From Membranipora membranacea (taxonomy: Eukaryota; Bryozoa; Gymnolaemata; Cheilostomatida; Membraniporidae): a DNA stretch of 64,000 nucleotides. Below are positions 1-54,184 of this stretch, one piece after another. Where the stretch lies: positions 16,571,501-16,635,500 of the forward strand of contig OU612070.1 of NCBI GenBank assembly GCA_914767715.1. The letters run 5' to 3'. Each line of letters opens with the position of its first letter. Positions within the stretch are counted from its first letter, which is position 1. The notes beneath the pieces are model-generated. The model was not told where the DNA came from. It was given only the letters and a program-made list of their open reading frames with translations, and made no database searches. Made by a program: the position numbers and the translations under genes.

Positions 1-2924
1 ATTCTATGACAAACATTTCCGAGTGCAGGAGGACAGCTCCTAGTTATACGTTGTTACTAGTCAGACCGATCATATAGCAGTTATTATGGATTTGATTCTT
101 AGGGAACATAGTAGCAATAGGATAGGAGCATAGGAGCATAATGTTCTTACTTCGACTAGGTTATTATAAAGAAAACTTGGTAACTGTGATTGAGCTCACA
201 AGCTAGAACACAGAATAAAACAATTAAAATGTGGAAAGGGAGTCTTATAGTAATTAATTAATAAAATTAATGCGTTGATACAGATCTAATATAGAATCAA
301 CAAAGGATGACCACATCAGGTACAGGTACAAGCAATTCATAGCCTTTCACATTTACATTCAGGTTGCAGGTCTTATGCAGCAATATGTTGAGCTTGAGGA
401 AAATCTGATAGAACTCCGAAATCAATCCAGAATTGAGGTGACAAGTTTCCTGGATGATGAGATCGGATGTCTCCTGGATAAGCTCAGCAGACAAGTAGCT
501 AGGATAGATACCAGACTTTTCACCTATCATGAGGTAGCTACTAGGTACAATATCTATTCGGATCGGTTATCATCTTGTTTCATATTTCCATTGTTACCCT
601 GATAAATATCAATGAGACATTCACCTGTAGCTCAATTTGTTTTGGCATAGAAAATAATGTTTCAGTTTCATACGCCCATGATTATAGCTTTAATGGCTCG
701 ATTGATCATGATTCAAAATGAGCTGAATTTGCATGTTGCCTGTTTTAGTCTGTCTTGTCAGGCTGGGGAGTTGCACTTTCCTATGATATAAACCCTACAG
801 TACTTGAAACGTATAAATATCTTTTCATGGTTTTTTTCCTGTGTATGTAATTGTCTTCACTTGAGTAGGAGGTGGCTCAGTTGGTTAGAGTGCCGGTCCT
901 TCAGCATGCAAGTGGCGAAGGTCGTGGTTTGAATCCCACTGTGGTCCATTGACTACTGGGGTTTTGTTGGTCCCCTGGTGTGCTCCGACCTGGCTGCAAA
1001 CTTGGCGCAGACATTGCAGCCTCGCCATTAAGGCAACTAATAATGCAATGTCTGAATCGTCTTCGTTCTGCCCCCTTACTGATGTAAGCTCCATTCTCAG
1101 CCTTTCTTATATTCTACCAGGTAGATGTGGCAGATGGATACAAAGAGACAGAGAAACTTATAAATGAACTGATGAATATGAAGATCCCTCAATATAAACC
1201 TTCATCTAATCATGTCCAGCTCTCTGATAACGGTATCTCCTGATTTATTTATCAAAATCTCTATACTTTCCTATTCTTTATTACTGGAACATCGTAAATG
1301 TGCTGCTTTGTATCACAATAACAGTTTCATATTTTGATATTATCACTCACATATTCTTTATCACTCAGTAACATCTTTCTTATCTCATTCATTATTATCC
1401 TACTGTACTGTAAATATAGAACATTTCGTATTGGATAACTATTTACCGGATATTGTCCATTTTTCTTTACCTACCTCTCCCTTGCCACATGAATCACTGT
1501 AAGTTTTCAATTACTGTTATCAATCCATCGCTGCTGACTCTGTGGAACGAAGCTATGTATGATTAAGCTGTTTTATTTTCAGATTGTGGTGATGTTCAGC
1601 TTGCTGTCAAGATAACACAATCATCTCGAATTCTGGTGGATCTGCCCTTCTTAGCTTATGACAATCCTCCAACTTCTATGAAAATACTCAGTACTGTCCA
1701 ACTCCCCTCCCAAGTCCACTCTGTTACTAAATACCAGAATTTAATTTTTGCTGGTCTGCAAAATAGCAAACTCATGAGGGTCACTGAACCTGTTAATACC
1801 AGCTCACCGTCTGAGTTTGTGAATGTTGGGGGTTATGTATCCAGTGCACAAGTATATAATAATGAGCTGTATGTATTATCACATAATGCCAGTAAGGTTT
1901 ATGTGTATGACTTACAGGGTAAACTAAAGAGGTCCTGGTCCCATAACAGTAACAGTAGTAACTTTAATAAGCTCAGAGTAGTAAATGAGAAGGTGGTTGT
2001 CCCAGATGGAGCTTCTCAATCTCTAACCGTTTATACACTTCAAGGTCAGCTTATAAAACAGATCAAATGTCCTGGTATGTCAACACACCATAAAGCATTA
2101 GCTGTATGCGGGGATGACTCTGTTATCTTGTCTGACCGTGGTACAAACAGTGTACTCAGAGTGAACCTAGACAGTGGAAAGGTGATGTGGACATCTAAAC
2201 ATGTAAACCAGCCACAAGGAGTCGTCTGCTACAGGGACAGATATGTACTCGTGTCAAACTGTAACACAGAAACTAAGATATGGATACTGGATGTGGATAC
2301 AGGTATGTTCATAATATTTGCATTATTTATATACAATTAGTACATTGGTAAATGACAGAGCTATTATTTATTGCGACCTCTTTTGTGCTCAAATAAATTT
2401 GTGAGAGAAACCAGTTCTATCTTGGCCTAACATTTCCTGTCCTTCACTCAACCAAGGGTCTCTAACTCTTTGACTCAACGTTCAGTCAATGATCATTAGG
2501 ATTAGGATTAGGATTTCTTCAGCTAAGGTTGTTTTGATATAAAGATTATGATATTGTAACATCGGTTATTATATAAATATATGTTAAATTTTATTTTGCC
2601 GATCAAGTTCTAGATTTGTGTAACATGTATGACTGTAATAAATAATTTGGAAGGCAAAATCATGCTCTACTTGCGGAATATACCACTGTCTAAATCCTGG
2701 CGTGTCTTGTGAACTTTTTTTAATGTTTTAATGAAACAGACAAAAAACTCCTTTATGTTGATTTCTCGTTGGATTTCCATTTTACAGGTGAGAAAGTAGG
2801 TGAGCTCCGCGGCCAGACAGGCATGATCTGTCATCATTTTGACCTGGATAGTGATGGTGACACTCTTATTATTGCTAAATACAATCTAGACTCAATACAG
2901 TGCTATGAGCTGATCACAGAATAG
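1..2924 (+). CDS. TP1: 3' part of a RING/B-box/coiled-coil TRIM gene with NHL-like beta-propeller
   Basis: The window opens inside the intron after the first coiled-coil exon, so the RING and B-box exons lie outside. Visible coding exons are 363-533 (57 codons, coiled coil), 1121-1232 (end of coiled coil), 1583-2302 (propeller) and 2788-2924 (last blade, stop TAG). All have AG/GT borders and phases that match the complete paralogues. The propeller carries six blades of about 42 residues. By homology it is the substrate- or ligand-binding part of a ubiquitin ligase. A SINE sits in the intron before 1121. No inactivating change is seen in the visible exons. The intron before the propeller resembles that of TP5 more than the other copies, a sign of exchange between paralogues. 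The family call is sure; the ligand is unknown. Confidence 0.85.
866..1080 (+). repeat. tRNA-derived SINE in intron of TP1
   Basis: The 5' part has a pol III box A (TGGCTCAGTTGG, 873-884) and a box B-like GGTTTGAATCC (926-936), followed by a non-tRNA body that runs to a point just before the next exon. The same element lies at the same intron position in TP3, TP4, TP5 and TP6, so it was inserted before the gene duplicated. It produces the short open frames on both strands here, which are not genes. Confidence 0.75.
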
Positions 2925-5394: not shown

Positions 5395-5910
5395 CTAAAA
5401 CAACACCCTAGATATTATTGTTCCAAGCAAGATATTCTGCTAACAATTATATCAACACATCGCGACTGCCTTGTGAGAATGGTGCTATCTGACAAACTGA
5501 TTGTCTATAAATTCGTTGAAATCTCCCTTTCCTCTCAGCAAATTGTCAATGCTGTCTGTTTTGACAACAACAGTCACTTCTGGCTAGAGAAAAAAAACCT
5601 TAATGAAAACAAACGCTTCTAAACTGATAAACGTTTACTCGATGTTTTGTTATTAATTCAGCATCATTCATTCAAAATGGCAGCACAACCTGAGTGATTT
5701 GCCTCCAACAATTGGTGTTGAAGTTTATCGGTAGAAGCAGCTGATAACTTTATCTCCGAAGTTGGAAGGCGCCAAATTTTCTAGCCTCAGGCCCTAGCTG
5801 TCAGTTTAATCCGCACTCACAGCGTAATGACCGACCTTCTGAACCTGAATAATCTTATTTACTTCTATAACCCGTATTTTTATGTTGGCATGATAATTTA
5901 GTTTTGACAG
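5395..5910 (+). repeat. Leader of the FN3-SPRY block, copy 1
   Basis: Closely matches 49045-49561. It holds no sure exon. A weak candidate for the missing first half of the FN3 domain follows a CTCTCAG acceptor near 5540, but the frame breaks soon after and differs between the two copies, so it is not called. Confidence 0.4.
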
Positions 5911-7304
<1,394 letters not shown>

Positions 7305-7827
7305 GCTCCCAGTCTAAGCTAGTCAATTTTTACCGTAATACCTCTCTTAACAACAAAAGTTTTTTTTATAAACAGAGCCAATGTAAATTTCAGTTTGAAG
7401 TAGCTCAAAGTTTCGCTCATCTTACACTTATATTTTTTGTGTCCACTATTGTCTGTGTTATTAGGGACAGCAGACAGCTTATTGTCTTGAAGAAAGCAAA
7501 AAAATATTGCTGAAATTTCATGTTTTTCTCACAATATTTACTGTGCTACTTCTGACTTCATTTTTTAAGTCCTGTCTATAACCCTCTTTTTGTACTTTTT
7601 TGATTATTTACTGTTAAACTAGTTATTACAGTCTAGTTATAGTTTTACATCACTGTATTATTACACTCACTTCTTGAAGATGGGAGATATTTGTCAAAAA
7701 ACTTATTTATTTTGAATCTTTGTAGTTTAGTATTTATTACTATATTTTGACCAGTTTCAAACAAGAAACATTGACTGTCTGTCTCTGGAAATACCATAAA
7801 AATATGGTTTGCATGCTGTGGTAAATG

Positions 7828-8470: not shown

Positions 8471-9134
8471 AAACTATTTCTCCAGACAGGCAAGTACCCA
8501 AGTATCTAACACCTTGGACTGTCTGTTGTATTTCATATAGTATGAACTGGCCATAAAATGATGGCAATGCAGCTTGTTTGCAGTTATTTAATGCTTGGGC
8601 TCACTGTTTGTATACAACTGACCAACCATTGGTTGTTTGGGAAGGAGTTCATCCTAAAAGTCCTGGCATTGTATACACAATAAAGTTTAGCTGTGAAGTT
8701 CTTAGGCTTGTATGTCCCATAAGCACACTTATGGCAAGATTAGTGAGCCAAGCGATGTACTATGGTTGCTCACTATATTGTTGTCTTCATTGTGGTAGTA
8801 GTATACAAAAAACTGGTAAAGCTTAGGACATCAGTGAGGTAAATATTGGTTTCTATACACAGGGCTCTCACATACCAGCATGGCTGCATGGGTGCAGCAC
8901 CCACCAATGTGTACCACCACCAAATTAGAAAATTTTGAAGATGCACTCCCCTGTGTCCAGGATATCATCTACCCATTTAGGCAGGATAGGAAACAGGCTA
9001 TGGATATGGATGGCTGATACCATGGACATGGAAAATATACAGGCTTGCAAGCCCCTGCGGCACATGTTTGCTTCCATAGCTGACAGCCAGTGGAGAAAAA
9101 CATGATTTCCTTGATATATTTTTAGTTCCCGCAA

Positions 9135-12100
9135 ATGATGGCAGAAGCAGAATCAAAAGAAGAAGGATTTCTAGAGTGTGGATTATGTTTTGAAAATGAT
9201 CCGCTCAAGCGATTACCCTGCAATCCTGGTCACATATATTGTGTAACTTGTCTGACCAAAGACTCCGAAGTGACTCAGATTATCAAATGTCCGCTGTGCA
9301 GGTAACCTATTGTGTTAACATAGTTGTGCTCATTGCATAGCTGCAAGCACATAATCATTAGTCGCCACTTGTCAAAACTGATAATCATGAGTTAAGGACA
9401 AAAATTGGAGATAGTACAAGCAAGGAATAAAAAGGCATAACAACAAAGTTTTATCTAGTAAGTGCGAAAACGAAGCTTGGCCAAAGATTTAGAGGAATTA
9501 TCACCTCTCTCCGCTTTCACTCCTTGAATCAATTAATTAGGGCACTGGTCTACTTCGGCACACAAGAGTTGCAGATCCTGATTTCATTTCTTTGACCTGC
9601 AACAAGTCACAAGTAAAACTATTATCTTATTCTTAGGTTTGTCTTCAGAAGACCCAATATTATACAACTATAATATTTCTGCACACAAGCCATGTTTGCC
9701 ACATGCTGACTCTTGAAACGTCTTAGCGTCGTGGGTAGGAGATGCTTTAATTTGATAGAGCACCAGCAGTCGTCAGCGCACAAGTTCTCTTGCTGTCACA
9801 TCTCTATGAAGATATGGCAACAGGGGATATGGTGGAAGATAGATTTGTTCAAGCGACAACTCATTCAAATACCTGATGATACACGATGATGATTAATAGC
9901 ACAACTTCAACCAGTAATGTTCTTGAAAGTGACTAGCACAATTATGCTTCATTTTTAGAACTGTGTTCGATGAAGGTATAGATGACATCCCATCAGCAGG
10001 TGCTCCACTAGATAAGTTTCTGTGCTGTGATGTTTGTATGAGAAAAGATGACAAGAGAAGACTGGCTCAGATTTACTGTGTGGTCTGCCAAAAAAAGTTT
10101 TGTACTCCTCATGAAAAGGTACAGATCATTTTCAAGATTTGAATGTATGCTAGACTGTCAAAGCAATCATACACTCATAAACAAGCATAAATGAAATACC
10201 TCTGCTGGTGGCCATTTGTTGTATTCATTGAACTTTGTTGACACCCTAAAAGTCATACCTATGAATTCTCACCCGATAGTTTGGTAGGCGTACGCTCATT
10301 AGCCCGGGTACAATGTAATAATCTTCTTAGTATCATGCATTCTTGCTTATTGGTTGTACATATTCTATAACAATTGTTGTGAAGCATAAGCCGCACTACC
10401 ATTATGCTGTTTTCAAATATTTATTTTCCTTCCATCAAAGAGTCATAACGATACACTGGATGACCACATGCGTATCAGAATGGATGAGTATAAGAAAGAT
10501 TGGAGAAAAATGGAGACAAGATACTGTGAGAAACACTCAAAGAAACCCTACTCCATAACTTGTGTAAAATGCCCCAGATTATTTTGTGGGGATTGTTTTG
10601 ACCAATTGGAAACCTGCTCTGATGGTTAGTGGGTAGAATCATTTATCTCAGATACGGAACAAACTTCCTTCTTGTCTTGAAATAAACCCAAGTCATATAA
10701 TCAAAAATATCGGAGCAGTGTAATTTTCTAAATTAATATTTGATAAACCGATACATATTGTAATAAATGACAGTAAACTTCTTACACCTCCCCATATTTG
10801 GTACTATTTGAAAGCTCTCAGTTTAAGTCTTTGTCTCTGAGCCTGGAATGAAGTACCCTCTCCATGTATATTTTGCTAAATATCTTATATAGGTGACAGG
10901 CACGAGCTGAGGTCAATATCAAACGTGGTTGCAAAGCTAATCGAGATGGTTAATGAGAAGAAGGTATGGATCTTCGATAAGGAGGAGCACCTGTTAGGAA
11001 TGTCCAAACAGCTGACAGCTGTCTTATCAGACTGGGATACAGAAACTCAAGAGTTGATTGACAAGCTACATAACGCCAGAGATAAACAAGTATGTAGAAT
11101 TCTATGACAAACATTTCCGGGTGCAGGAGGACAGCTCCTAGTTATACGTTGTTACTAGTCAGACCGATCATATAGCAGTTATTATTGATTTGATTCTTAG
11201 GAAACATAGTAGCAATAGGATAGGAGCATAGGAGCATAATGTTCTTACTTCGACTAGGTTATTATAAAGAAAACTTGGTAACTGTGATTGAGCTCACAAG
11301 CTAGAACACAGAATAAAACAATTAAAATGTGGAAAGGGAGTCTTAATAAAATTATTGTGTTGATACAGATCTAATATAGAATCAACGAAGGATGATCACA
11401 TCAGGTACAGGTACAAGCGATTCATAGCCTTTCACATTTACTTTTAGGTTGCAGGTCTTATGCAGCAATATGTTGAGCTTGAGGAACATCTGATAGAACT
11501 CAGAAATCAATCCAGAATTGAGGTGACAAGTTTCCTGGATGATGAGATCGGAAGTCTCCTGGATAAGCTCAGCAGACAAGTAGCTAGGATCGATACCAGA
11601 CTTTTCACCTATCATGAGGTAGCTACTAGGTAGAATATCTATTCGGATCGGCTATCATCTTGTTTCATATTGCCATCGTTACCCTGAAACATATCACTGA
11701 GACCTTCATCTGTAGCTGAAAAAGTATTCGAAAATCCAATTTGTTTTGGCATAGAAAATAATTTTTCAGTTTCATACTCCCATGATTATAGCTTTAATGG
11801 CTCGATTGATCATGATTCAAAATGAGCTGAATTTGCAAGTTGCCTGTTTTAGTCTGTCCTTTAAGTCCTGGGCTGTGGAGTTGCACTATCCTATAATATA
11901 ACCCCCTGCAGGGGTTTGGTTGGGCCCCCTGGTGTGCTCCAACCTGCCTGCAAACAGAGAGTAGCTTGGCGCAAACATTGCAGCCTCGCCATTAAGGCAA
12001 CTTACCGATTAAGCTTCGTTCTCAGCCATTCTTATATTCTACCAGGTTGATGTGGCAGATGGATACAAAGAGACAGAGAAACTTGTAGAAGAACTGATGA

Positions 12101-13808
12101 ATATGAAGATCCCTCAATATAAACCTTCATATAATCCTGTCCAGCTCTCTGATAACGGTATCTCCTGATTTATTTATCTAAAATCTCTATTCTTTTCTAT
12201 TCTATATTATTGAAACACCGTAAAAGTACTGCTTCGTATCACGATAACAGTTTCATATTTTGAAATTTAAACTTCTTTATCACTCAGTAACATCTTTCTT
12301 ATCTCGTTCAATATTATCTTACAGTACTGTAAATGTAGAGCATTTTGTATGGGAAAGGTTTTCATCGGATATTGTCCATCTTTCTTTACCTACCTCCCCT
12401 TGCTGCATGAATCACTGGTGTCAATTAATGTTATCAATCCATCGCTGCTAACTTTGCGGAATGAAGCTATGAATAATGAATCTGATTTCATTTTCAGATT
12501 GTTGCGATGTTCAGCTTGCTGTCAAGATAACACAATCATCTGGAAAGCTGGTGGATCTGCCCGTCTTAGCTTATAAAAATCCTCCAACTTCTATGAAAAT
12601 ACTCAGTACTGTCCAACTCCCCTCCCGTGTCCACTCTGTTACTAAATACCAGAATTTAATTTATGCTGGTCTGGAAAGTAGCAAGCTCATGAGGGTCACA
12701 GAACCTGTTAATACCAGCTCACCGTCTGAGTTTGTGAATGTTGGGGGTTGTGTATCTAGTGCACAAGTGTATAATAATGAGCTATATGTGTTATCACATC
12801 ATGCCAGTAAGGTTTATGTGTATGACTTAGATGGTAAACTAAAGAGGTCCTGGTCCCATAACAGTAACGGTAGTAACTTTAATAAGCTCAGAGTAGTAAA
12901 CGAGAAGGTGGTTGTCCCAGATGGAGCTTCTAAATCTCTAACCGTTTATACTCTTCAAGGTCAGCTTATAAAACAGATCATATGTCCTGGTATGTCAACT
13001 AACTATAAAGCATTAGCTGTATGCGGGGATGACTCTGTTATCTTGTCTGAATACGGTACAAACAGTGTATTCAGAGTGAACATAGACAGTGGAGAGGTGA
13101 TGTGGACATCTAAACATGTGACCAGTCCACAAGGAGTTGTCTGCTACAAGGACAGATACGTACTCGTGTCAAACTATAACGCAGAAACTAAGATATGGAT
13201 ACTGGATGTGGATACAGGTATATTCATAATATTTGCATGATTTACATACACTTTATATATTGGTAAATGACAGAGCTATTATTTATTGGCATGTCTTTTG
13301 TGCTCAATTAAATTAGTGAGAGAAACCAGTTCTATCTTGGCCAAACTGTTCCTATCCTTCACTCAGTATTCAGTCAATGATAATGCGAGTTGGGATTTCT
13401 TCAGCTAAGGTTGTTTTGCAAATAAGATAATGATATTGTATCATCGATTATTATGTAAATATATGTTAAATTTAATTTTGCCAATCAAGTTGTAGATTTG
13501 TATAACGCGTATCACCGTACATAAATAATTTAGAAGGCATAATGTTATAGTCTACTTGTGGAGTATGTCACTGTCTTAATCCTGGCTTATCTTGTGAAAC
13601 AGAAAAATATTCCTAAAATAGACACTGATTTCTCCTTTATTTTGATTTCTCAGTGGATTTTTTTTTTACAGGTGAGAAAGTAGGTGAGCTCCGCGGCCAG
13701 ACAGGGGGGATCTGTCATCACTTTGACCTGGATATTGATGGTGACACTCTTATTATTGCTAAATTTGCTCTAAATTCAATACAGTGCTATGAGCTGATCA
13801 CAGAATAA
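9135..13808 (+). CDS. TP2: complete RING/B-box/coiled-coil/NHL-like propeller TRIM protein (615 aa)
   Basis: Eight coding exons: 9135-9301, 9959-10118, 10441-10624, 10893-11089, 11448-11618, 12046-12157, 12498-13217, 13672-13808 (stop TAA). Domains: RING C3HC4 at about residues 15-56 (ECGLC...CNPGHIYCVTC...CPLC), B-box1 about 73-115 (CCDVC, YCVVC, FCTPH), B-box2 about 133-165 (RYCEKH, CVKC, CGDC), coiled coil about 175-330, six-bladed propeller about 360-615. The RING predicts ubiquitin E3 activity in the cytoplasm; the propeller should bind the target. Two ATGs lie in tandem after the AG acceptor at 9125, and either may start. No inactivating change is seen. Residues 374, 390-392, 415, 432, 455-458, 475, 492, 499-500, 515-517, 539-540, 557, 583-586 and 602-603 differ strongly from the paralogues. 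Only a remnant of the SINE lies in intron 5. Substrate unknown. Confidence 0.9.
11909..12005 (+). repeat. Remnant of tRNA-derived SINE in intron of TP2
   Basis: Only the body survives (from GGGGTTTGGTTGGG to AAGGCAACTTA). The box A and box B part seen in the other copies has been deleted. Confidence 0.6.
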
Positions 13809-16005
13809 GGAACTAATGATCCACTCTGTTCTTGGTTCTTTCAATCAGTTCTGGTCAATGATATGAATTTGTGGATCAGTGGTAAATTACATAGCGTGGC
13901 TATTTGTGGGGATATGCCATCAGTATAAAGCTTTGTGTCAGGATCTAAAGAAAGCTATAAATCTGGAAGCTTTTACGTGATGCATTGATTGACGTCCCAG
14001 TAACGACATTCAAAAACTCAGGCAAGCTGCTTGACAGAAGTTTACAAGTGTCAGCTATTCTAGTTTCTGAACTTATGGACCAATCAGAGATGAATAATGC
14101 GGTCCAGCATTCATGAATAGCCATACGCTTGCTCAGGGTCAGATATGTACTCCTCACCCATCCTCATATATCAGTGGTTCTGGTTGTAATATAAGGTCTA
14201 GCGGTACAAGTTTGAAGGTGTGTTTTCCTCTACTGTGTTATCACCCATATTTCTCTCTGACTCTCTGTTCATCCTCTTTTCCAAATGATGTTTTCCCGTG
14301 TCTTTATTAATAGATGAATCTTTGAAACACTATCCAAATCGCAAGTATGAAATAAATAGGCAGTGCGAAATATGTTTTATAGTGAAAGGAGTTTTTTGTA
14401 GTTTTTGAACACAAGCTTCAAATAACCAATTTTTTTTGCTTTGTACAAGAGTATCTCTGTTTAATATTTTATTTCCTTAATTACATATTGATTTCGGGTG
14501 TTTCGTTGCCTTGCTCAATGTACAGATGATGATTTCTGTTGTCAGCTACCATGTTTATTCTACATTATTAAAATCTATCCTTAGAGGATTATTACGAGCA
14601 TGAGTTTTATTGGGATTAACCTAGTTCTCCAACTATTAACATATGGTCAGAGATCAAATACACTGAAGTTTAATATGGTTGCTGGTGGTTGCACACCATA
14701 ATCAACCAGATAAACAAAAAAAGATATATTTTCTATGAAATAACCACTTGATTTAATGTTAATCATACTGATCAAGCCTCAAGAGGTGCGACTGATAAGT
14801 ATCCAGTCATTCTGCCTAAAAATGATACTTCACCCATCTCCTGTCAATATATGCTGACCCCCATGTCTCTACCGTATAAACATCTCCTCTATGGGCAATT
14901 GCTTCCTCTTTCATTCAGATAGGACGACTCTTATATTTTGTTTTGTAGCAGCTATCTTACTGGATTAGTTTTAATCACGTATGTTTATAGCCGTAAGTAG
15001 GATTCATTATCTCAAGATCCTTTTTAACAGAATTACAGAATCTTCACACAGTGCTGTTGTTAAATCCAAACAGATGTGCTCTCTGCTTTGTGTGGCTTGT
15101 TTGAGTTCTCAGCCTGCCAGCCCAACTTTAGTGAGCAAATTCACGACATAATGCTGCGAAAAACTCGAAATAACAACCTTCATCTTGGCATTATGTAATC
15201 AAATCATCATATCTAGCTAATTTCATCAGTATAATTGCTTTTCTATGTCAGACATTCAAGTCTGGTCTTGGGTTTGTGATCACAATATGCTGTGTCATGC
15301 TGAGCTGCTCTGTGAGGTCACATCTCACCCACTACTACTATTCACTGTGCTGTTTTTCAACCCCTTTTTGTGCAAAAGCTCTTCAAAGGCTTCACCACCA
15401 GCATTGACGTATTCATACCTCTCCCATACATTTTTGCACAACACTTTCAGTACTTTATTATGCCTAAACATGTATCTACCGAGTCTGATTGAAAATTAGA
15501 CAATACATGCCGTAATGTACCCTAGACCAAACACCATTGTATAAAAAACACATATGATAGGTTTTAACAATAGTTATATCACTGGACTATATACATGTTT
15601 CATTTGTTACGTACGTATAGTGTTAATGGATTTATATTTGAGCGCCTTGATTAGCGTTTCAATTGTAATAATTTATAATGCGTAAAAACATCATAATATA
15701 TGTATAAGGTTATAGGTAACAGTGCACAACTGACATACAATATATATTCATTCTGTCAAGGGGTTGATTCTACACATCTTAAAATGGCTACAAGTGGTGA
15801 TAAAACTTCAATGAACGTATCTGAGTTCAGATCTGTATATGAGAGTGAAGGGCAGTATAACCTGACTGTACAGATTCCATATTGAGCTAAACTAGCATGC
15901 GATATAACCAGATAGAGAGTCAGTAGCAACAAGAGTTTCGTACAAATGTTGATGAATCTTTACTTACATTGTCTGATTGATTACCTTGTTGGGTACACCA
16001 AGGAG
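13809..16005. repeat. Duplicated downstream segment D, copy 2 (no clear gene)
   Basis: Near-identical to 2925-5122. Includes the small frame 15784-15885, whose 33-aa peptide is the same as at 4901-5002. It ends at TTAA (16006-16009), where the transposon nest begins. Confidence 0.6.
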
Positions 16006-16009
16006 TTAA

Positions 16010-16400
16010 AGGGCAACCAAGGTTTCAAACAACTTCTCATTGATGGCCATTGATTAATAGCAGATTGCACCTTCTGCTTGGGGAAAAAGACAAAATATAA
16101 TTCGGATGCTTATTCAGCCAGAATTCTTGTGAAATATTTCTTCCATCAGGCACTCAAACTCAGCTAAAAGAGAATACCACATAGCAGTTTCCTGTTCCTG
16201 TTATTATTTAGCCTGTGCTCTATAATTATTATAGCAAAGTCTTGGAACCTCCCCTAAACTGAAGTGTTACCCAACTTAGAGTCAGCAACTACTTTGAGTT
16301 TTGCATCGCGTAATGCACAGAGCTGATGCTGCCCAGCACATTATTTCCTACCCATTAATGCATTGCTGCGAAACCATGGTATCAAACAATTTCTCATTGA
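16010..16400 (+). mobile_element. TTAA element, forward copy in the nest
   Basis: Starts AGGGCAACCAAGGTTTC after TTAA, in the same place as the 5127 copy, and runs to GCATTGCTGCGAAACC. Its right end is scrambled and fused to a short piece that resembles another left end. An inverted copy follows directly, so the DNA from about 16200 to 16560 can fold back on itself. Confidence 0.65.
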
Positions 16401-17835
16401 TTAAAGGGCAACCAAGGTTTCGCAGCAATGCATTAATGGGTAGCAAATAATGTGCTGGGCAGCATCAGCTTTGTGCATTACACGATGCAAAACTCAAAGT
16501 AGTTGCTGACTCTAAGCTGGGTAACACTTCAGTTTAGGGGAGGTTCCAAGACTTTGCTGTAATAATTATAGAGCACAGGCTGTTACACCCACAAGTGTAA
16601 TAATTTTCAAAACTTGTAATAACACCCACAAGTGTAATAATCTCTTCCCTCAAATGTAATAACCACCCACAAGTGTAATAACTTCTTCCCTCAAGTGTAA
16701 TAAAATGCTTCACCCACAAGTGTAATAATCTCTTCCCTCAAATGAAATAAAAAATAAATCACCTACAAGTGTAATAATCTCTTCCCTCAAACGTAATAAT
16801 TTTACTTGCCGGCAATTGTATTGGAGAATAGAGAGGTCAGATCATCTGACAGCGCTATTACTGTGTTATATGCGCCTATGGTGTTTTTTACACTACAAAT
16901 TGTCATAATAGGGTTTAAAATGTAAATCCTATGAAAATCCATGCAAAGGCACTGATTTGTGTAGGGGAGACAACTTTATTATAAACTTTGAAACTGATAA
17001 GAAGCTTCCACTTAGAGAGGTCATCTCTAACAAATTTTATATGGGTATTAACAATCAATATCATTGTACTCTACAATATTACCAAACTTTATATGTCTAG
17101 TAGGAAGAGTCATGGTATCGATTAAGCCAGCCAGAGCACATCAAGATTCACGATGGTCCAACTATGATATTACTGATGCTGCCCACCTTATTATTTTTTG
17201 GAGCCGTCATTTAGGGTGGCTAGGATTTACATAAACTCGGACAATCATGTGAACTATTTTTACGGAGAGAGTTTCAAATAGTTGTAATGAAAGAGATATA
17301 CAAGCTTATGTGTGAAAAAACGTTGTAGCATAGGATAGTCACAGTTGACTTTGATCGTTCTAATTCTATTGTACATTCAACCAAGTAATAAATAATTGTT
17401 AATTTTACCTCTCTTTTTATGCACAAAATATCAATCATAATGTTTCATAACTTGAACAAAAGCTTGAAGTCAAAAATAAACAGACACAGCTGAACATTAT
17501 TACCCCAATATATCACAGTATAAAAGAAAGTAGAATTTTTCATCAGTTATTGCTGTTCATTGCAGCGACCAAGATGTCAACTTCACTCCTCAGGTGAGCA
17601 AAAACAATCACTATCTCATTTACATCTCATTGTTTCTACAAGCATTTTAAAGTTACTGCCTGTCATTGGCATTCCATCATCAATCCTGGCAAGGAACTGA
17701 CAATAATTACCAGGTTTCGGATGTTAAGCGGTTCGGCTACAAATAATAGTATTATACATGAAACCAATGATCTAAGTCATTGATGAAACCTATAACTTGA
17801 ATTGTCGTCAATGAAATTTGTTTATTCTTTTTCAG

Positions 17836-20800
17836 AGTGATGTTACTACTTGTCTTTCAATATTCATATGCTGCGACAGTGTGTATGCTAGAGGAAAGAG
17901 AAAGCCTACTGTGATGAATGATTGCATATATGATGTGATTATGAAAATAGAGAGTGGAAACTTTAAATCCGCAGTCAAGGACCGCAGTAAATTGGAGCGT
18001 TCTGCATACGTTCATCACTGGCGCTACAGGGGACGTTGGAGCGTGGAAATCAAAGACTCAGAACAGATTATTCTCCTTGGTAAGCAGAGCCTAATTCACA
18101 ATGTACTCATTGAATATTTCATTACACACAGCCCAATTTGTAGCACAGCATTTTCGAATTACCTGTCTCTCCGGGTAATGTTTATTTTAGGTAACGCATG
18201 ACTATTAATTGTCTTCATTAGGAATGAGACGCCCCTCCGTTTCGAGATGGGTTTTGAGGCGGGGTGACGCAGTCTCGTTGTCACAAAACTAAGTTCCCCA
18301 TTCTTGTTTTCGAAGCGGGAAGAAGATGATAGAATTGTTCCTACTTTGTCCTTACTTCATGCTGTCCCTTCTCATCTTGTTTTGACTTTCAAAAACTCAT
18401 TCCACCCCTAGTGTTAATTGGCTATTACGCTGAAGTACGGTCAATTGTGATGAATTTTCTTGTCTCCACATCCTCATTCATGAGACAAGAAGATGGCAAT
18501 GAAACTTAATTGAAATAACCTTGGTGCATACACTATGACTTTACTCATTCATACTGCATTCATATCAATAGCAGTAGCTAATGTAGTTTGTGTGGAATAT
18601 TGGAGTCAATTGATATCAAAATACATAGAAGACAACTCCAGGTGTATGAAGTTTGGTGTGAATTTGAACAAGAACATATCTCCATGAATTTGATTGGAGT
18701 CCCTAGGTGTTTAATCACACAACACAAAGCATCTGCATACTACATTGTCAATATGTCTCAGACTGTAATGCCATATTTTACTGATTTTTTGCAGATGGAT
18801 TACGAGTGATACGACAATCCGAGAAGGCACCGGTGATTGCTAAACACTTTGATATTGAGAAGGGTCTTGGACCACGACGTTTGCAGTTAAAAATGAAAGG
18901 CACATATGTAGGATTCTCTGAGGCAACTATTGCATCTGCGTTACAACACTCAACCACCCGGCAAAGACTGTCTGCTAGGTTCAGCAACAAGGCTCTCATG
19001 ACACCGATATGCTGTAGGACCGTCATGTGGCGAGTACAAATCGACTTAGTTGACTTTCGTAACAACCCGGCGTATCATAATGGTAAAGAATATCGATATA
19101 TTCTGACTGTGCTCGATGTCTTCTCTAGATACACCTGGCTGAGACCGTTGACCAGAAAATCTTCAAAAAATGTGGCAAAGGAGCTGAAGGCGATATTTGA
19201 CACGTTTGGTAACCCAAAGATAGTCCAGAACGACCAAGGTACAGAATTTAAGCAGGGTGTCCAGACTGCTGAAGGCAAGAGACATTCGACAAATATTCAG
19301 CAGCCCATATCACCCAGAGTCGCAGGGGAAAGTAGAGAGGTCCCACCGTACGTTGAAGTACAAAATGCAGTACGACCTCATCTCGAATCCCAATGGTACA
19401 AACTGGGTAAATGAGCTTCCTACATATGAACTCCAGTTGAACGATATGCCACGAGGAGAACTAGCCTGGTGGAGTCCACTAAATGTGTATTACGGACGGG
19501 AGAAGTTCCTCACAACATCCGAGAACACAACTGAGAGAATTCGAAGTGAGGCAAGAATAGCCAGTGGAAAGGAAAATGAGAGAGTTATAAGACGCTCATT
19601 CAAGTCATTAAAAACACCGACATATGAAATAAATGACAGAGTCCTGATACGGCTAAGGATCGACAGGCAACAAAAGAATATCCAAGGCAAAGGTTGTGAT
19701 GGGAAATGTAATCCAGAGAAATGAAAAACTGTACATGTATAAAGTAAAATATCACTTAAATAACAATGCCAAAACGAAGTGGATTTCAGTCAGGGACCTG
19801 ACTGACAGTACACTTAGTCTCCAAAAGAAACGAATGCAGCAAACCAGATTGGACGTGCTGATAAGCAACAGCTCTCAACTCTTTGCCTCGCCGACCATTT
19901 TCAACCCAGCACCGGATGGGAACTGTCAATTTGCAGCCATAGCGTACGCTATTCAACAGTTAGGAATATACCGTTCGGCAGACACACTCAGAAGTGAGGT
20001 TATTGAATATCTCATGAGAAACAGGTATGTCGGAATCCAAAACAGCGTGTTGTGGACTGAAGCAATTGGAGAGGATGAACACGAATACATCACACGGATG
20101 AGCCAAAATGCGGAATTTGGCGACCATCTAACGCTCCAGGTAGCTGCAGAAATCTTCAATTGATTCTACTATTCAACATGGATCAACAACGATTGTACTT
20201 GGCCATCAAGACGAGACGAGAGGTACCCATTATGTAGTCCTTAGGAATGACATGAGGGACATACATCAAATCGTTGAGAGTTCAAGGCAGATTACGACAG
20301 ATTCCACAAGACCCTCCCCTACAACCAGGTATTTAATTTTGTTTCCATTGATTCATTCTAAACGCATGATCATTAATGTTCAAACCCAAACATAGTAAAA
20401 CTTATTTTGTGCAAGCCACGATGACTCAATTATACAGTATAAATGGCATGTGATACAATGAGTAGTGGACAGGAGACAAACTAGAGATGCTTCCTGGTTT
20501 ACAAATAACTTCAATCACCTATATGAATATGTTGCAAAATTGAGACTGTGTAAACCGGGGCAGTGATAGAACCGGTGATAAAATTTTCTTTTTCTTTGAA
20601 TGGTTGTAGCGCCAGTACATCAGAAGCAACAGACATTCCCATCAATCATACAATTATCGAGTCTAACAGCAGCCGCATTAAAGCACAGAATTCAGCATTT
20701 CATATCAGGTAAGGCCTAAATACATGGAAGGATAACTCCTATTGTCGCTTCCAGCTTTCAGGTTCAAAATCTTGGTAGGTTTTCCTTGCCAAGTCAGAAT

Positions 20801-22934: not shown

Positions 22935-23525
22935 GTCTCCCCTATACAACTCAAACGGATGGATTTTCATATGATTTAAAGCCCTATTATGACAATTTGG
23001 AGCGCAAAAAAACACCAAAAGGCGCATATAACACAGTAATAGCGCTGTCAGATGGTCTACCTCTCTATTCTCCAATACAATTAACGGCGAATTAAATGAT
23101 TACATTTGAGGGAAGAGATTATTACACTTGTGGGTGATTTTTTTTTTATTACATTTGAGGGAACAGATTATTACACTTGTGGGTGAAGCATTTTATTACA
23201 CTTGAGGGAAGAAGTTATTACAGTTGTGGTTGGTTATTACATTTGAGGGAAGAGATTATTACATTTGTGGGTGTTATTACACGTTTTGAAAATTATTACA
23301 CTTGTGGGTGTAACACAGGCTAAATAAAAACAGGAACAGGAAACTGCTATGTGGTATTCTCTTTTAGCTGAGTTTGAGTGCCTGATGGAAGAAATGTTTC
23401 ACAAGAATTCTGGCTGAATAATCATCCGAATTATATTTTGTCTTTTTCCCCAAGCAGAAGGTGCAATCTGCTATTAATCAATGGCCATCAATGAGAAGTT
23501 GTTTGAAACCTTGGTTGCCCTTTAA

Positions 23526-23861
23526 TAGCAGATTGCACCTTCTACATTTGGAAAAAGACAAAATCTAATTCGGATGATTATTGAGCCGGAATTCTTGTGA
23601 AACATTTCATCCATCAGGTACTCAAACTCAGCTAAAATAGAATACCACAGAGCAGTTTCCTGTTCCTGTTATTATTTAGCCTGTGCTCTATCATCATTAC
23701 AGCAATGTCTTGGAACGCCCCCTAAACTGAAGTGTTACCCAGCTTAGAGTCAGCAACTACCTTGAGTTTTGCATCGTGTAATGCACAAAGCTGATGCTGC
23801 CTAGCACATTATTTACTACCCATTAGGCATTAACGTATTGCTGCGAAACCTCTGTTGCCCT
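23526..23861 (+). mobile_element. TTAA element, 5'-truncated forward copy
   Basis: Begins inside the element at TAGCAGATTGCACC directly after the TTAA of the inverted copy, and ends with the right terminus GTTGCCCT before TTAA (23862-23865). That TTAA is shared with the next element. Confidence 0.65.
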
Positions 23862-25970: not shown

Positions 25971-28745
25971 CATGGGCGTCACTAGGGTTTTGTGTAGGGT
26001 GTTCTTTTTGATGTAATTTACAAAGTAGAGTGTAACTAGCCGCGGTACGCGACTCTGAGACGCAGAGCGCCTACGGGAGGGGCGCATTCGGAAAATTTTT
26101 AGGTTTCTACTGCAAAAATGGAGGTATTTGAGCTATGTCTAGGGCTAACAATTAGGTTCTAAATTGGGCAGTGTGTTTCTTCAACTAAAAAAGCAATAAA
26201 TCAACCGAAGCGACCTCACTACAGGTACCAATAGCAAGCATTAATGCAAGAAGCGATGTTACCAGTGGAGCATTCTGTTGTCAAAGTAATGTAAATTTCA
26301 GTGTTTTATTTTACTTGATGAATCTTTATACTATAATTTTACTTTCAATCAATAGTTCTCGATTAAAAGATGTTCTAGTGTTGTTCTTTGTCCTATTTGT
26401 CGAAGATGAGGCTAGCCAGCTCCGTGCGCCTCAGATGGAGAGCAGCAAACATGTCTATAACTTTTTCTTTGTCTATTGACACCCCCCAGTGAATGCTCAT
26501 TAAAGCAAGAGCATCGAGCCTCTGGCTCGTTTGTGTCTTCCTGAGATATGAGTTCAGCCTTCGTAGGGTACTGAAGCTCCGTTCACACTCGCATGTGGTT
26601 ACTGGTAGAGTAGCCGCTATCTCAGCAGGATGTTGATGTTAGGAAATAGGGAGGGGGGGCACTTATCCAGCACCATGGTGATAGACCCGTCACCTACCTC
26701 CATTCCTGCCGAGTGTTGAGACCACCTTACCAATTCCATATCGAGGAGCTGTGGTGTGGGCATGTCGTTCTCATATTGTACCTTAGCAGCCTCTAACTCA
26801 GTGACGCTTATGCTGACTGGAGGGAGCAATCCCATAAGGGAAGTAGCAATAGAAGATATACCTGCAATATAACATAGTAATTAAACCAAGTTTCATTATA
26901 ATCACTCTATGATGCTCTCTTAATCTCTTATGAATGCTCTATGATATCAAACATTGGAAAGTATCAAACAAAACTAGAAAGCCAACATAATTCAATGTTG
27001 TTGTTATTTTCTTTCCGGACGCCAAACAAGAATTACAATTAATACGACATTCACCTGTAAACTGGGCATCCAGCTGGGCTATCAGATGATCCAGGAATGG
27101 AAGGTAAAGGTTGACGTGATAGTAGTAGATAGTAACTGTTTTAAGTTAATACATGCACAACGTTCTTATATGTATATCATCAGATGTTTACTACAGAGCT
27201 TACATCTTGTGCTACTCTTTATAGGATGCAATGACATGCTGCACAGTGCACTAATGATAAAGCTTAACGTACAGGGTAACAACATGCAGAACAGAGCTGG
27301 TTTAAACTTTACCTCCCGCAGTCACTTCACTGCATGTACTGGTTGATGGCGCTGGATCCATGCTTGATGAGATAATTATTATATGTCAACAGCAGTTCAA
27401 TAGCCACCTCGAATAGCTATACAATACAATCTTGGTTAGCAAAGTATCAGAGTGCAGTAGGCCTGCGATTTGACAGAGCAAAATTCTGTGTTGCTATAGT
27501 ATACTGTCTTACCTTTTGTCACCAAGACTTCCAGATGGCTTCTTTGTAGCAGAAGGCAAGTACTGAAACAGCGAGCGCTGCTGTCCCTGATCGGATTTTC
27601 GTTTTGACATCCCGACAAACGCTAAGTAGGTCTACTAAGGTGAATAATAAGCTACAACAAATATCAGAATTACTCAATGGGAACGGTGATAGAAAAATCT
27701 CTCAGTAGCATCGGCATAGGTCTAAGCTTGAATAATACTGGATAGATGGATGTTGGCCTGAGTATGGTTGGTTGATAGTGAACCTTTGCAAGTTGTACTG
27801 TAGACAAATCCCCCAGGTGCCCATGCCCATGGCCTACTACTACTGTAACTCTGGCCCAACCCTACAACTACTACACTACTGTCTCCCAGCGCCTGTGGTC
27901 TGGCTGCTTGGTGTGAAGTAAAGTCAGTGTGTATGATCTGGGGTCAGGCCCGCCAACTTTCACTCATTTAGAGTGAGCCTCACTCAGTTGCCCCACTCAA
28001 AATAGTATGAGTGAGATTGAGTGAGACAATTGCCCCACTTTGACTCAAGTTAATATCTACTGTAGTATCATGGAGAGGAAAATTGCCCCAATACTAACCA
28101 ATCTCACTCAATTGCCCCACCTTGGGGTTGGCAGGGCTGATGATCCCATGATAATGGTGTTGTGATAGACCATGGTTTCTGGTGGCTGGGGCATGTGTAT
28201 GTATTGCTTAATCATCAAACAAGGACATAAGCCTAATGGCCTCTTGTAAAAAATATGTATATTGAGTGTCCAGAAAATGGCTTTTGAAATTCCCTCACTT
28301 GGAATTTCCAAAAGGCATTTAGTCCTTGGCATTCACATGACCCTGACATAAATAAATGAAACTAGCCAACTTGACTTGCTATACTAGTTTGTAATTGGCA
28401 GATTAAAATCTATGTCAATGGTTGCCATGGATTTATTAGCTGCAGGATTACCTTCACCATAACATTAAATTTTATGATGGAAGGAGCAGAGCGTAAGCTT
28501 TGGGAAGGAGTAAAAAAATTGAAAAAATGGCCAAGAACAAGAATAACAGACTTTGCCACAGCACACACATCAACACACTCTTGATTATACTGTTGTATGT
28601 ATCAAATCATAGCTCACCAATGATAAGAGAAGTCAAATTGTCCACAAAGAAACAAGCAAGAAAAAGATAAAAAAATTTTTTCTACATTTAGGGTGTTCGT
28701 TCGCAGCAGGCCGAACCCCCCCCCCCCCCCCCAGTGACGCCCATG
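25971..28745 (-). mobile_element. hAT transposon, 2775 bp, 8-bp TSD ACTAGCCA
   Basis: Terminal repeats CATGGGCGTCACT / AGTGACGCCCATG are flanked by ACTAGCCA at 25963-25970 and 28746-28753. The empty site reads GAACTAGCCATAAAA at 56.06 kb and is equivalent near 8545 and 36461. A run of C lies just inside the right end. A minus-strand transposase fragment at 26393-26861 confirms the superfamily. Most of the catalytic region is missing, so the copy is internally deleted. Confidence 0.9.
26393..26861 (-). pseudogene. hAT transposase, C-terminal dimerisation region, frameshifted
   Basis: The exon begins after an AG acceptor at 26862-26863 (complement). The first frame runs through MGLLPPVSIS to LFPNINILLR. 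A shift of one base near 26630-26640 is needed to enter LPVTTCECERSFSTLRRLNS, the hallmark hAT dimerisation motif, which runs to the stop at 26393-26395. The frameshift and the lack of an upstream RNase-H-like region show that it is dead. Confidence 0.8.
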
Positions 28746-29371: not shown

Positions 29372-32300
29372 ATGATGGCAGCAGCAGAATCAAAAGAAGA
29401 AGGATTTCTAGAATGTGGATTATGTTTTGAAAATGATCCACTCAAGCGATTACCCTGCAATCCTGGTCACATATATTGTGTAACTTGTCTGACCAAAGAC
29501 TCCGAAGTGACTCAGATTATCAAATGTCCGCTGTGCAGGTAACCTATTGTGTTAACATAGTTGTGCTCATTGCATAGCTGCACGCACATAATCAATAGTC
29601 GCCACTTGTCAAAACTGATAATCATGAGTTTAGGACACAAATTGGAGATGGTACAACCAAGGAATAAAAAGGCATAATAACAAAGTTTTATCTAGTAAAT
29701 GCGAATACGAAGCTTGGCCAAAAATTTAGAGGAATTATCACCTCTCCCCGCTTTCTCGTTGAATTAATTAATTAGGGCACTGGTCTACTTCAGCACACAA
29801 GAGTTGCAGATCCTGATTTCATATCTTTGACCTGCAAAAAAGTTAGAAGTAAAACTATTATCTCATTCTTGGGTTTATGTGCAGAAGACCAAATTTTTTA
29901 AAACTATGCTATTTCTGCACAGTAAGCAATGTTTGCCACATGCTGACTCTTGAAACGTCTTAGCGTCGTGGGTAGGAGATGCTTTAATTTGATAGAGCAC
30001 CAGCAGTCGTCAGCGCACAAGTTCTCTTGCTGTCACATCTCTTGCTGTCATATCTCTATGAAGTGCTCTGAACATTGGGCGTTGTTGAAGTCACTGATGT
30101 TATGTAAGAGATGGCAACAGGGGATGTGGTGGAAGATAGATTTGTTCAAGCGACAACTCATTCAAATACCTGATGATACACGATGATGATTAATAGCACA
30201 ACTTCAACCAGTCATGTTCTTGAAAGTGACTAGCACAATTATGCTTCATTTTTAGAACTGTGTTCGATGAAGGTATAGATGACATCCCATCAGCAGGTGC
30301 TCCACTAGATAGGTTTCTGTGCTGTGATGTTTGTATGAGAAGAGATGACAAGAGAAGACTGGCTCAGATTTACTGTGTGGTCTGCCAAAAAAAGTTTTGT
30401 ACTCCTCATGAAAAGGTACTGATCATTTTCAAGATTCGAACAGGGTTGGGGCTTGAATGTATGCTAGACTGTCAAAGCAATCATACACTCACAAACAAGC
30501 ATAAATGAAATACCTCTGCTAGTGGCCATTTGTTGTATTCATTGGAAATTGTTGACATCCTAAAAGTCATACCTATGAATTCTCACCCGATAGTTTGGTA
30601 GGCTTATGCTCTTTAGCCTAGGTACAACGTAATAATTTTGCTGGTATCATGCATTTCTGCTTTTCTGCTTTTTATAACAATTGTTGTGAAGCATAAACTG
30701 CACTACCATGATGCTGTTTTCAAATATTTTTTTTTCTTTCTTCTTTCAAAGAATCATAACGATGCACTGGATGACCACATGCGTATCAGAATGGATGAGT
30801 ATAAGAAAGAGTGGAGAAAAATGGAGACAAGATACTGTGATAAACACTCAAAGAAACCCTACTCAATAACTTGTGTGAAATGCCCCAGATTATTTTGTGC
30901 GGATTGTATCGACCAATTGGAAACCTGCTCTGATGGTTAGTGGGTAGAATCATTTATCTCAGATACATAACAACCTTCCTTCATGTCTCGAAATAAATCC
31001 CAAGTCATATAATCAAAAATATCGGAGCAGTGTAATTTTCTAAATTAATATTTGATAAACCGACATATATTGTAATAAATGACAGTAAACTTCTTACACC
31101 TCCCCATATTTGGTACTATTTGAAAGCTCTCAGTTTTAGTCTTTGTCTCTGGGCCTGGAATGAAGTACCCTCTCCATGTATACTTTGATAAATATCTTAT
31201 ATAGGTGACAGGCACGAGCTGAGGTCAATATCAAACGTGGTTGCAAAGCTGATCGAGATAGTTAATGAGAAGAAGGTATGGATCTTCGATAAGGAGGAGC
31301 ACCTGTTAGGAATGTCCAAACAGCTGACAGCTGTCATATCAGACTGGGATACAGAAACTCAAGAGTTGATTGACAAGCTACATAACGCCAGAGATAAACA
31401 AGTATATAGAATTCTATGACAAACATTTCCGGGTGCAGGAGGACAGCTCCTAGTTATACGTTGTTACTAGTCAGACTGATCATAGCAGTTATTATGGATT
31501 TGATTCTTAGGGAACATAGTAGCCATAGGATAGGAGCATAGGAGCATAATGTTCTTACTTCGACTAGGTTATTATAAAGAAAACTTGGTAACTGTGATTG
31601 AGCTCACAAGCTAGAACACAGAATAAAACAATTAAAATGTGGAAAGGGAGTCTTATAGTAATTAATTAATAAAATAAATGTGTTGATACAGATCTAATAT
31701 AGAATCAACAAAGGATGATCACATCAGGTACAGGTACAAGCGATTCATAGCCTTTCACATTTACTTTTAGGTTGCAGGTCTTATGCAGCAATATGTTGAG
31801 CTTGAGGAACATCTGATAGAACTCAGAAATCAATCCAGAATTGAGGTGACAAGTTTCCTGGATGATGAGATCGGATGTCTCCTGGATAAGCTCAGCAGAC
31901 AAGTAGCTAGGATAGATACCAGACTTTTCACCTATCATGAGGTAGCTACTAGGTAGAATATCTATTCGGATCGGCTATCATCTTGTTTCATATTGCCATT
32001 GTGACGTTGATAAGTATCACTGAGACCTTCACCTGTAGGTGCAGAAGTATTCGAAAATCCAATTTGTTTTGGCATAGAAAATAATTTTTCAGTTTCATAC
32101 GCCCATGATTATCCTTAACGGCTTGATTGATCATGATTCAAAATGAGCTGAATTTGCAAGTTGCCTGTTTTAGTCTGTCCTTTTAGTCGCGGGCTGTGGA
32201 CTTTCCTATAGGGTAGCCCCCTACAATATTTGAAATGTACCGTAATACCTCTCTTATAAGGCACCGGCCTTAGAAGTGAAGCACCTCCTTCAAAAACAAT

Positions 32301-49561: not shown

Positions 49562-50982
<1,421 letters not shown>

Positions 50983-51085
50983 GCTCCCAGTCTAAGCTAT
51001 TTAAAAGATATCAGTTTGAGTCTTTGTCTCTAAGCCTGGAATGAAGTACCCTCTCCATGTATATTTTGATAAATATCTTAAATAG

Positions 51086-54000: not shown

Positions 54001-54184
54001 CAAAAAACTCCTTTATGTTGATTTCTCGTTGGATTTCCATTTTTCAGGTGAGAAAGTAGGTGAGCTCCGCGGCCAGACAGGGGGGTGGTGTAGTCATTTT
54101 GACCTGGATATTGATGGTGACACTCTTATTATTGCTAAATGCGATCTAAAGTCAATACAGTGCTATGAGCTGATCACAGAATAG
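51086..54184 (+). pseudogene. TP5: coiled-coil/propeller TRIM gene lacking the RING and B-box exons
   Basis: Exons 51086-51282, 51654-51824, 52432-52543, 52887-53603 and 54048-54184 (TAG) are open and splice correctly. The RING, B-box1 and B-box2 exons are absent. The sequence passes from the SPRY 3' flank (CAGTCTAAGCTA) straight into the intron before the coiled-coil exon (TTTAAAAGATATCAG) at about 50999. The propeller lacks two residues before LVDLP and has one extra (VKNVGG). Variable sites: H (LPSHV), Y, Y, G, I (DGAIQS), F for C (KQIKF), ND, RV, IL, Y, GW, CD. Without an upstream start it is either dead or makes a RING-less, possibly dominant, product from an internal ATG. Confidence 0.75.
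52176..52391 (+). repeat. tRNA-derived SINE in intron of TP5
   Basis: Differs from the TP4 copy at only a few bases, with box A and box B intact. Confidence 0.75.

Follow-up and report, generated by a model that had tools for sequence, protein, structure and literature searches.

Fast-evolving recognition in TRIM proteins is known from SPRY domains, and the best-studied TRIM-NHL proteins are developmental regulators. In the finTRIMs and TRIM5alpha, the selected loops lie in the B30.2 domain and a lesser signal is found in the front end, according to the available part of PMC2657112. The TRIM-NHL proteins Brat, Mei-P26, LIN41 and TRIM2/3/32/71 carry a six-bladed propeller with the ligand on its top face (available sections of PMC13245067, PMC9070667, PMC9634614 and PMC5908797). 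Excerpts of PMC2533329 describe the TRIM group with varied C-terminal domains as highly conserved and the SPRY group as species-specific, and by our own reading of them the NHL TRIMs fall in the conserved group. The only invertebrate TRIM expansion that these excerpts name is a filamin-related subgroup containing worm and fly genes. TRIM56 has an NHL-like tail (excerpt of PMC9634614) and is antiviral according to the title of PMC6623546; a further TRIM56 paper is PMC5807518. A literature word search for positive selection on the NHL-like domain of TRIM56 found no paper and gave no sign of a diversified face. Among the best open-access word-search matches listed, no title concerned diversifying selection on a TRIM-NHL propeller, which is a weak absence, and TRIM proteins do not come up in the main text of the oyster paper PMC4346834. 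In HET-D and HET-E of Podospora anserina, selected pairs of residues are located in the strand d-to-a loop and the b-c turn of a WD40 propeller (PMC1805685, available part).

Inspection of a window of 64,000 nt, the whole stretch of DNA analysed here, revealed one eight-exon gene in six very similar tandem copies on the plus strand (TP1-TP6). We consider it likely that these genes form a TRIM-like RING E3 family with an NHL-like six-bladed propeller, in which each of twelve top loops (ten modelled, two extrapolated) has one to three residues, within it or at its edge, altered by diversifying selection, the RING, B-box and helical exons being nearly identical. In having a TRIM-like front end, duplication, selected loops in the recognition domain and a weaker front-end signal, the cluster resembles the finTRIMs and TRIM5alpha as portrayed in the accessible text of PMC2657112. 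Those proteins, however, carry a B30.2 (PRY-SPRY) domain; a C-terminal B30.2 of the finTRIM/TRIM5 type is not present here, and a propeller stands in its place. The TRIM-NHL proteins have a six-bladed propeller with a top ligand face, as is predicted here, and a profile match to Brat was found, but they are single regulators, whereas here the positions of Brat contacts change fastest and the Pfam NHL repeat is unlisted. TRIM56 is a TRIM protein with an NHL-like tail, as proposed for the present family. As in HET-D/HET-E, the d-a and b-c top loops are diversified and sequence is exchanged among copies, but the fungal NLRs exchange the WD repeats themselves (both points from the part of PMC1805685 available), whereas the present family consists of animal-type RING proteins with an NHL-like propeller, encoded by separate tandem genes.

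Gene cluster and domain architecture

All eight exons are present in TP2, TP3, TP4 and TP6, whose gene models encode 615, 621, 615 and 615 aa, and the frames of all six copies are open across the exons present. Exon-intron organisation and domain content point to an animal. The genes, with TP2 given by exon, are as follows.

363-2924, plus strand: TP1 gene, exons 5-8 only, the 5' part cut off by the window start
9135-9301, plus strand: TP2 exon 1, RING (C3HC4 pattern)
9959-10118, plus strand: TP2 exon 2, B-box-1-like Cys/His pattern, by eye
10441-10624, plus strand: TP2 exon 3, B-box (zf-B_box 18 bits, under the cut-off)
10893-11089, plus strand: TP2 exon 4, presumed coiled coil, by eye
11448-11618, plus strand: TP2 exon 5, presumed coiled coil, by eye
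12046-12157, plus strand: TP2 exon 6, linker to the propeller (gene model)
12498-13217, plus strand: TP2 exon 7, linker and blades 1-5 (splice AG..GT, open frame, AF2 model)
13672-13808, plus strand: TP2 exon 8, blade 6 and stop codon (gene model; blade 6 from the repeat pattern)
29372-34583, plus strand: TP3 gene, exons 1-8
37051-41913, plus strand: TP4 gene, exons 1-8, donor of exon 4 AT
51086-54184, plus strand: TP5 gene, exons 4-8, without exons 1-3
56709-61263, plus strand: TP6 gene, exons 1-8

No further copy of exon 7 was found elsewhere in the 64-kb window, a tblastn search of exon 7 against phage records gave no match, and Rfam returned nothing at gathering scores. Exon 4 of TP4 is followed by ATATAT (39011-39016), in place of the GTATAT or GTATGT of TP2, TP3, TP5 and TP6, which is a lost splice donor; reading on past the exon leads to a stop codon after five codons. 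At the start of TP5 (50990-51090), a match to positions 5397-7321 of the TP1-TP2 spacer is joined straight to a match from 10804 onward, so that TP5 is without the RING and B-box exons while its propeller is still open. Judged by this junction, TP5 looks like a deletion joining the equivalents of 7321 and 10804, and lacking RING and B-box it might serve as a decoy or be a copy that is dying out.

The RING is of the C3HC4 type, and all eight metal ligands are present in all four genes that have exon 1 in the window. In the TP2 protein zf-RING_5 was matched at E 7.6e-4 (19.9 bits, Pfam cut-off 27.9) and zf-B_box at E 0.0032 (18 bits, below the cut-off of 24.1), and a TRIM28 chain was matched over residues 72-196 (E 0.0021). 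Exons 2-3 hold B-box-like Cys/His patterns, and exons 4-6 appear by eye to be helical, as a coiled coil and linker. The propeller part of TP2 starts at residue 331 of 615. The sole Pfam family above cut-off in this protein is PQQ_2, a propeller model (29.3 bits, cut-off 27.6); the NHL repeat PF01436 is absent among the 15 families listed for TP2 at E up to 10, a listing from which filters remove most matches above 0.1, and neither NACHT nor WD40 is among the Pfam matches. Foldseek and VIA-align rows were mostly WD40, BamB-like and designed propellers, and the fold alone therefore does not decide between NHL and WD40. A profile of the six propellers matched NHL structures of Brat (E 5.6e-5 and 6e-5); for the aligned domain alone E was 0.039. 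Since the Pfam NHL model is unlisted although the Brat profile match is significant, the family is a candidate member of the TRIM-NHL proteins (class VII).

Other open frames lie in the spacers between the copies. PRY/SPRY-like frames at 6228-7301 and 49880-50344, in two spacers, matched PRY at E 5e-6 in both, just under the Pfam cut-off, and SPRY at E 4e-7 for 7035-7301; a second TRIM-type recognition domain thus lies between the copies. The TP2-TP3 spacer holds frames resembling an integrase core (rve, E 1.4e-10) and an OTU cysteine protease (E 1.8e-8) at 18806-20160, which are probably a retroelement. They are flanked by inverted repeats at 16006-16837 and 23059-23825, of 148-257 bases, 94-99% complementary and 6-7 kb apart. 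Furthermore, a hAT transposase dimerisation region is located on the minus strand at 26396-26638 (E 7e-7).

Variable codons and tests of selection

The preliminary description of this DNA, made from the letters, had reported that a few codons differ in almost every copy within otherwise very similar propellers. Every codon and residue pair quoted there is present, and the TP2 site numbering agrees with the 615-aa gene model. In TP1-TP6, residue 374 after LPS is encoded by CAA, CGT, TAT, TTT, CAT and TGT, residue 415 after VGG by TAT, TGT, TGG, TAT, TAT and AAT, and the AK-xx-L pair at 602-603 reads YN, FA, TT, YT, CD and YA. The interval given, 12500..13808, needs narrowing, as coding sequence covers 12498-13217 and 13672-13808 (stop included) and 13218-13671 is intron 7. 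The site ranges do mark variable sites, but 391, 455, 457, 458, 499 and 515 have two states, 585 is invariant, and variable positions off the top face were omitted: the linker ahead of blade 1 has three (347, 353 and 357), strands have two (384 and 565) and a bottom loop has one (404). Length changes had been placed at or beside these sites; four are present. Those of TP3 (between 451 and 452, and after 500) are both in top d-a loops, and one in TP5 (between 410 and 411) falls at the end of strand 1d beside a d-a loop; the fourth, loss of residues 346-347 in TP5, is in the linker. The codons concerned, with posteriors (PP) under M8, are listed below.

12626-12628, plus strand: TP2 codon 374, loop 6d-1a; Q R Y F H C; PP 0.999
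12674-12682, plus strand: TP2 codons 390-392, loop 1b-1c; 390 PP 0.905, 392 PP 0.941
12749-12751, plus strand: TP2 codon 415, loop 1d-2a; Y C W Y Y N; PP 0.989
12800-12802, plus strand: TP2 codon 432, loop 2b-2c; N H Y N Y Y, three residues; PP not >0.9; aligns with Brat N800
12869-12880, plus strand: TP2 codons 455-458, loop 2d-3a; none with PP >0.9
12929-12931, plus strand: TP2 codon 475, loop 3b-3c; PP 0.923
13001-13006, plus strand: TP2 codons 499-500, loop 3d-4a; 500 PP 0.982, adjoins the residue aligned with Brat R875
13049-13057, plus strand: TP2 codons 515-517, end of strand 4b and loop 4b-4c; 516 PP 0.998
13121-13126, plus strand: TP2 codons 539-540, loop 4d-5a; PP 0.994 and 0.995; 540 aligns with Brat F916
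13175-13177, plus strand: TP2 codon 557, last residue of strand 5b, top end; PP 0.989; aligns with Brat N933
13707-13718, plus strand: TP2 codons 583-586, loop 5d-6a by repeat pattern; 583, 584 and 586 PP 0.998-1.0, 585 invariant
13764-13775, plus strand: TP2 codons 602-605, loop 6b-6c by repeat pattern; 602, 603 and 605 PP 0.996, 0.929 and 0.989

In the propeller alignment of 292 columns, 26 columns have at least three residues, 53 have two and 213 have one, gaps uncounted; with gaps counted the first class has 27 columns, and 17 such columns fall within the modelled blades. Codon positions 1, 2 and 3 are variable in 25, 19 and 11 of the 26 sites. The sites recur about every 21 residues, which is half a blade, and one of 2000 permutations gave as strong a periodicity. 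Pairs of copies differ at 9 to 17 of 18 signature sites, picked after the variation was seen, and at 12 to 31 of 237 further sites in the propeller. Counted by eye, the net charge over the 18 sites ranges from -2 to +2 between copies.

Codon models were fitted with in-house code to six paralogues from one window, with naive rather than Bayes empirical posteriors. For the six propellers 2dlnL was 63.7 (M1a/M2a), 65.3 (M7/M8) and 63.7 (M8a/M8, p 7e-16), with about 12% of codons at omega about 7 and 19 sites with a posterior above 0.9 under M8. With a star tree the values were 77.2 (M1a/M2a) and 77.9 (M7/M8), and 20 sites exceeded 0.9, among them two new ones, 353 in the linker and 492 at a strand's top end. 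On the two intron-like trees M1a/M2a 2dlnL was 63.1 and 75.4, and for the four complete genes alone it was 36.3. Taken by thirds, the propeller gave M1a/M2a values of 31.8, 8.1 (p 0.017) and 42.1. None of 164 null simulations under M1a reached 63.7, the maximum being 10.7 on one tree (n=83) and 23.5 on three conflicting trees (n=81); M2a was fitted to the simulations from one starting point and to the real data from two, and the null values may therefore be slightly low. The diversifying selection proposed earlier is thus borne out, with dN/dS >1 at the sites under four trees and beyond the recombination null. Over the whole propeller M0 omega is about 0.93, and pairwise means are dS 0.091 and dN 0.074. 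In the four complete genes M0 omega is 0.45 for exons 1-6 against 1.03 for their own propellers; the weak M2a signal in exons 1-6 (2dlnL 10.6) lies inside the range of the recombination simulations.

Location of the sites on the predicted propeller

An AF2 model was built from the six exon 7 translations only, with a shallow alignment, and covers blades 1-5 (pLDDT 73.7, pTM 0.76); blade 6 was placed by extrapolation of the repeat pattern. A second AF2 run led by TP3 (pLDDT 66.0) left the strand pattern of blades 1-5 unchanged. The modelled blades contain 17 sites with at least three residues. The d-a and b-c top loops hold twelve of them, a bottom loop one (404) and strands four, of which 492 and 557 are at top ends and 384 and 565 are not. 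This top-loop concentration was matched by one of 194 circular shifts; by site counts, the contrast between top and bottom loops is modest (Fisher P 0.01-0.05). With loop and strand classes chosen by structure and not by variability, dN/dS was 1.82 in the top-loop codons (n=48, 95% interval 1.20-2.58) relative to whole-propeller dS, or 1.54 relative to their own dS, 0.61 (0.26-1.04) in bottom-loop codons (n=34) and 0.38 (0.23-0.56) in strand codons (n=121).

Nine of the 19 M8 sites are in modelled top loops, 557 is at the top end of a strand, 404 is in the bottom loop and 347 and 357 are in the linker; the remaining six (583, 584, 586, 602, 603 and 605) belong to blade 6 by repeat pattern. The preliminary description had put its sites on one face. 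In the model the variable sites are indeed concentrated there (12 of 17 in top loops); exceptions are 404 in the bottom loop and 347 and 357 in the linker, all three with PP >0.9. On the predicted structure selection is thus concentrated on the binding face, apart from these three, and in this respect the propeller resembles a diversified recognition receptor.

In Brat, N800, Y829, R847, R875, F916 and N933 are RNA contacts according to the available parts of PMC13245067 and PMC9070667. The comparison uses these six named contacts out of 15 and an assumed numbering offset, with which the letters at the named residues agree. TP2 residues 432, 540 and 557 align exactly with N800, F916 and N933, and residue 500 adjoins the one aligned with R875; insertions in the alignment contain Y829 and R847, which are two to three residues away from TP2 456 and 475. 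Three of the four aligned contacts thus coincide with sites (hypergeometric 0.0011, Y829 and R847 left out), in an alignment whose per-domain E-value is just 0.039, and none of 137 shifts was as close when all six contacts were used.

Mosaic copies and competing explanations

The introns had been suggested as a neutral control. Over the four complete copies, mean total-base divergence is 0.071 in intron 6, 0.102 in intron 7 and 0.079 in exon 7; because both introns diverge to a similar extent as the exon, the exon is not more variable overall, and what sets it apart is that the amino-acid changes are crowded into few codons. Introns 4-7 have mean divergences of 0.033-0.111, similar to the synonymous rate of the propeller (dS 0.091). 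In TP2 and TP6, intron 6 differs by 0.6%, exon 7 by 6.7% and intron 7 by 15.5%; the use of this pair as a clean contrast of intron and exon (0.6% against 6.7%) was dropped in view of intron 7.

The copies are mosaic, with 4004 of 7750 informative-site pairs incompatible. Intron 6 groups TP2 with TP6 and TP1 with TP5, and intron 7 groups TP5 with TP6. Divergence among the four complete copies (8535-14410) is uneven, from 2.3% in the 5' flank, 4.2% in intron 1, 9.5% in intron 2 and 3.6% in intron 4 to 10.2% in intron 7 and 12.0% in the 3' flank, and the closest pair changes by gene segment, a pattern expected of conversion or recombination. That gene conversion alone produced the selection signal was rejected: the mosaicism is real, but the 81 three-tree simulations stayed far from the observed value.

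The tandem genes, their open frames, dN/dS above 1, the concentration in d-a and b-c loops of the modelled blades, the match to Brat contacts and the mosaic copies are shown, and several explanations can be held against them. Relaxed constraint or neutral drift after duplication would agree with a whole-propeller M0 omega near 0.93, but mere relaxation is disfavoured by the M8a/M8 result and by dN/dS of 1.2-2.6 in top loops while strands stand at 0.38, on which grounds it was rejected; the six open frames over the exons present also speak against it, and we regard it as very improbable. Just as improbable is that the pattern arose from local mutational hotspots or from targeted hypermutation in germline or soma. 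The changes do come in short codon groups and mostly at codon positions 1 and 2, but synonymous change in invariant neighbour codons was not significantly raised near the sites (14 of 77 within three codons against 14 of 122 further away, P 0.21; P 0.10-0.22 at three other distances, all leaning upward), and the window holds no additional exon copy.

Two other explanations accept selection and differ in the ligand. TRIM-NHL-like regulators might target RNA or protein of endogenous elements, tracking changing transcripts in a transposon or germline conflict. The coincidence with Brat RNA contacts and the integrase-, OTU- and hAT-like frames in the window would fit, but a site charge that shifts from negative to positive between copies leaves no fixed positive patch, and the explanation appears unlikely. 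Alternatively, the variable face could tell conspecific partners apart rather than pathogens, as in HET-D/HET-E. The tandem mosaic copies and diversification of the same loops as in those receptors (PMC1805685, part available) point that way. We know of no RING E3 ending in a propeller with a role in allorecognition, which counts against self-identity, and we consider this explanation rather doubtful. Pathogen molecules are favoured over self-identity or transposon transcripts because of the arms-race pattern, and varied protein or mixed ligands over one RNA backbone because the net charge changes between copies.

The cluster is thus probably a germline family of diversified recognition E3 ligases with a putative immune role, immune sensing or allorecognition having been named as plausible in the preliminary description. 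Such proteins would combine a conserved front end and a fixed propeller scaffold with selected change on the ligand face. Each copy's propeller would bind a different target, and the RING would ubiquitinate the bound ligand or signal on binding. The ligands would most likely be pathogen-derived, making the cluster a germline-encoded repertoire for innate recognition, and exchange between tandem copies would shuffle the faces. More tentatively, at a little less than an even chance, germline repertoires of RING E3s with NHL-like propellers may represent a form of animal nonself recognition, in which about 18 top residues change freely on a fixed scaffold, exchange shuffles the faces, the catalytic front is held uniform by selection and perhaps conversion, and copies without a RING, TP5 for example, act as regulators or decoys.

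What changes fastest here is the propeller face with which Brat binds RNA, and the pair of loops under selection is shared with the fungal WD40 recognition receptors. If the reading as a recognition repertoire is true, the family would offer a candidate case of animal self/nonself recognition inside the cell that is open to direct testing, and propellers would repeatedly serve as diversifiable binding faces.
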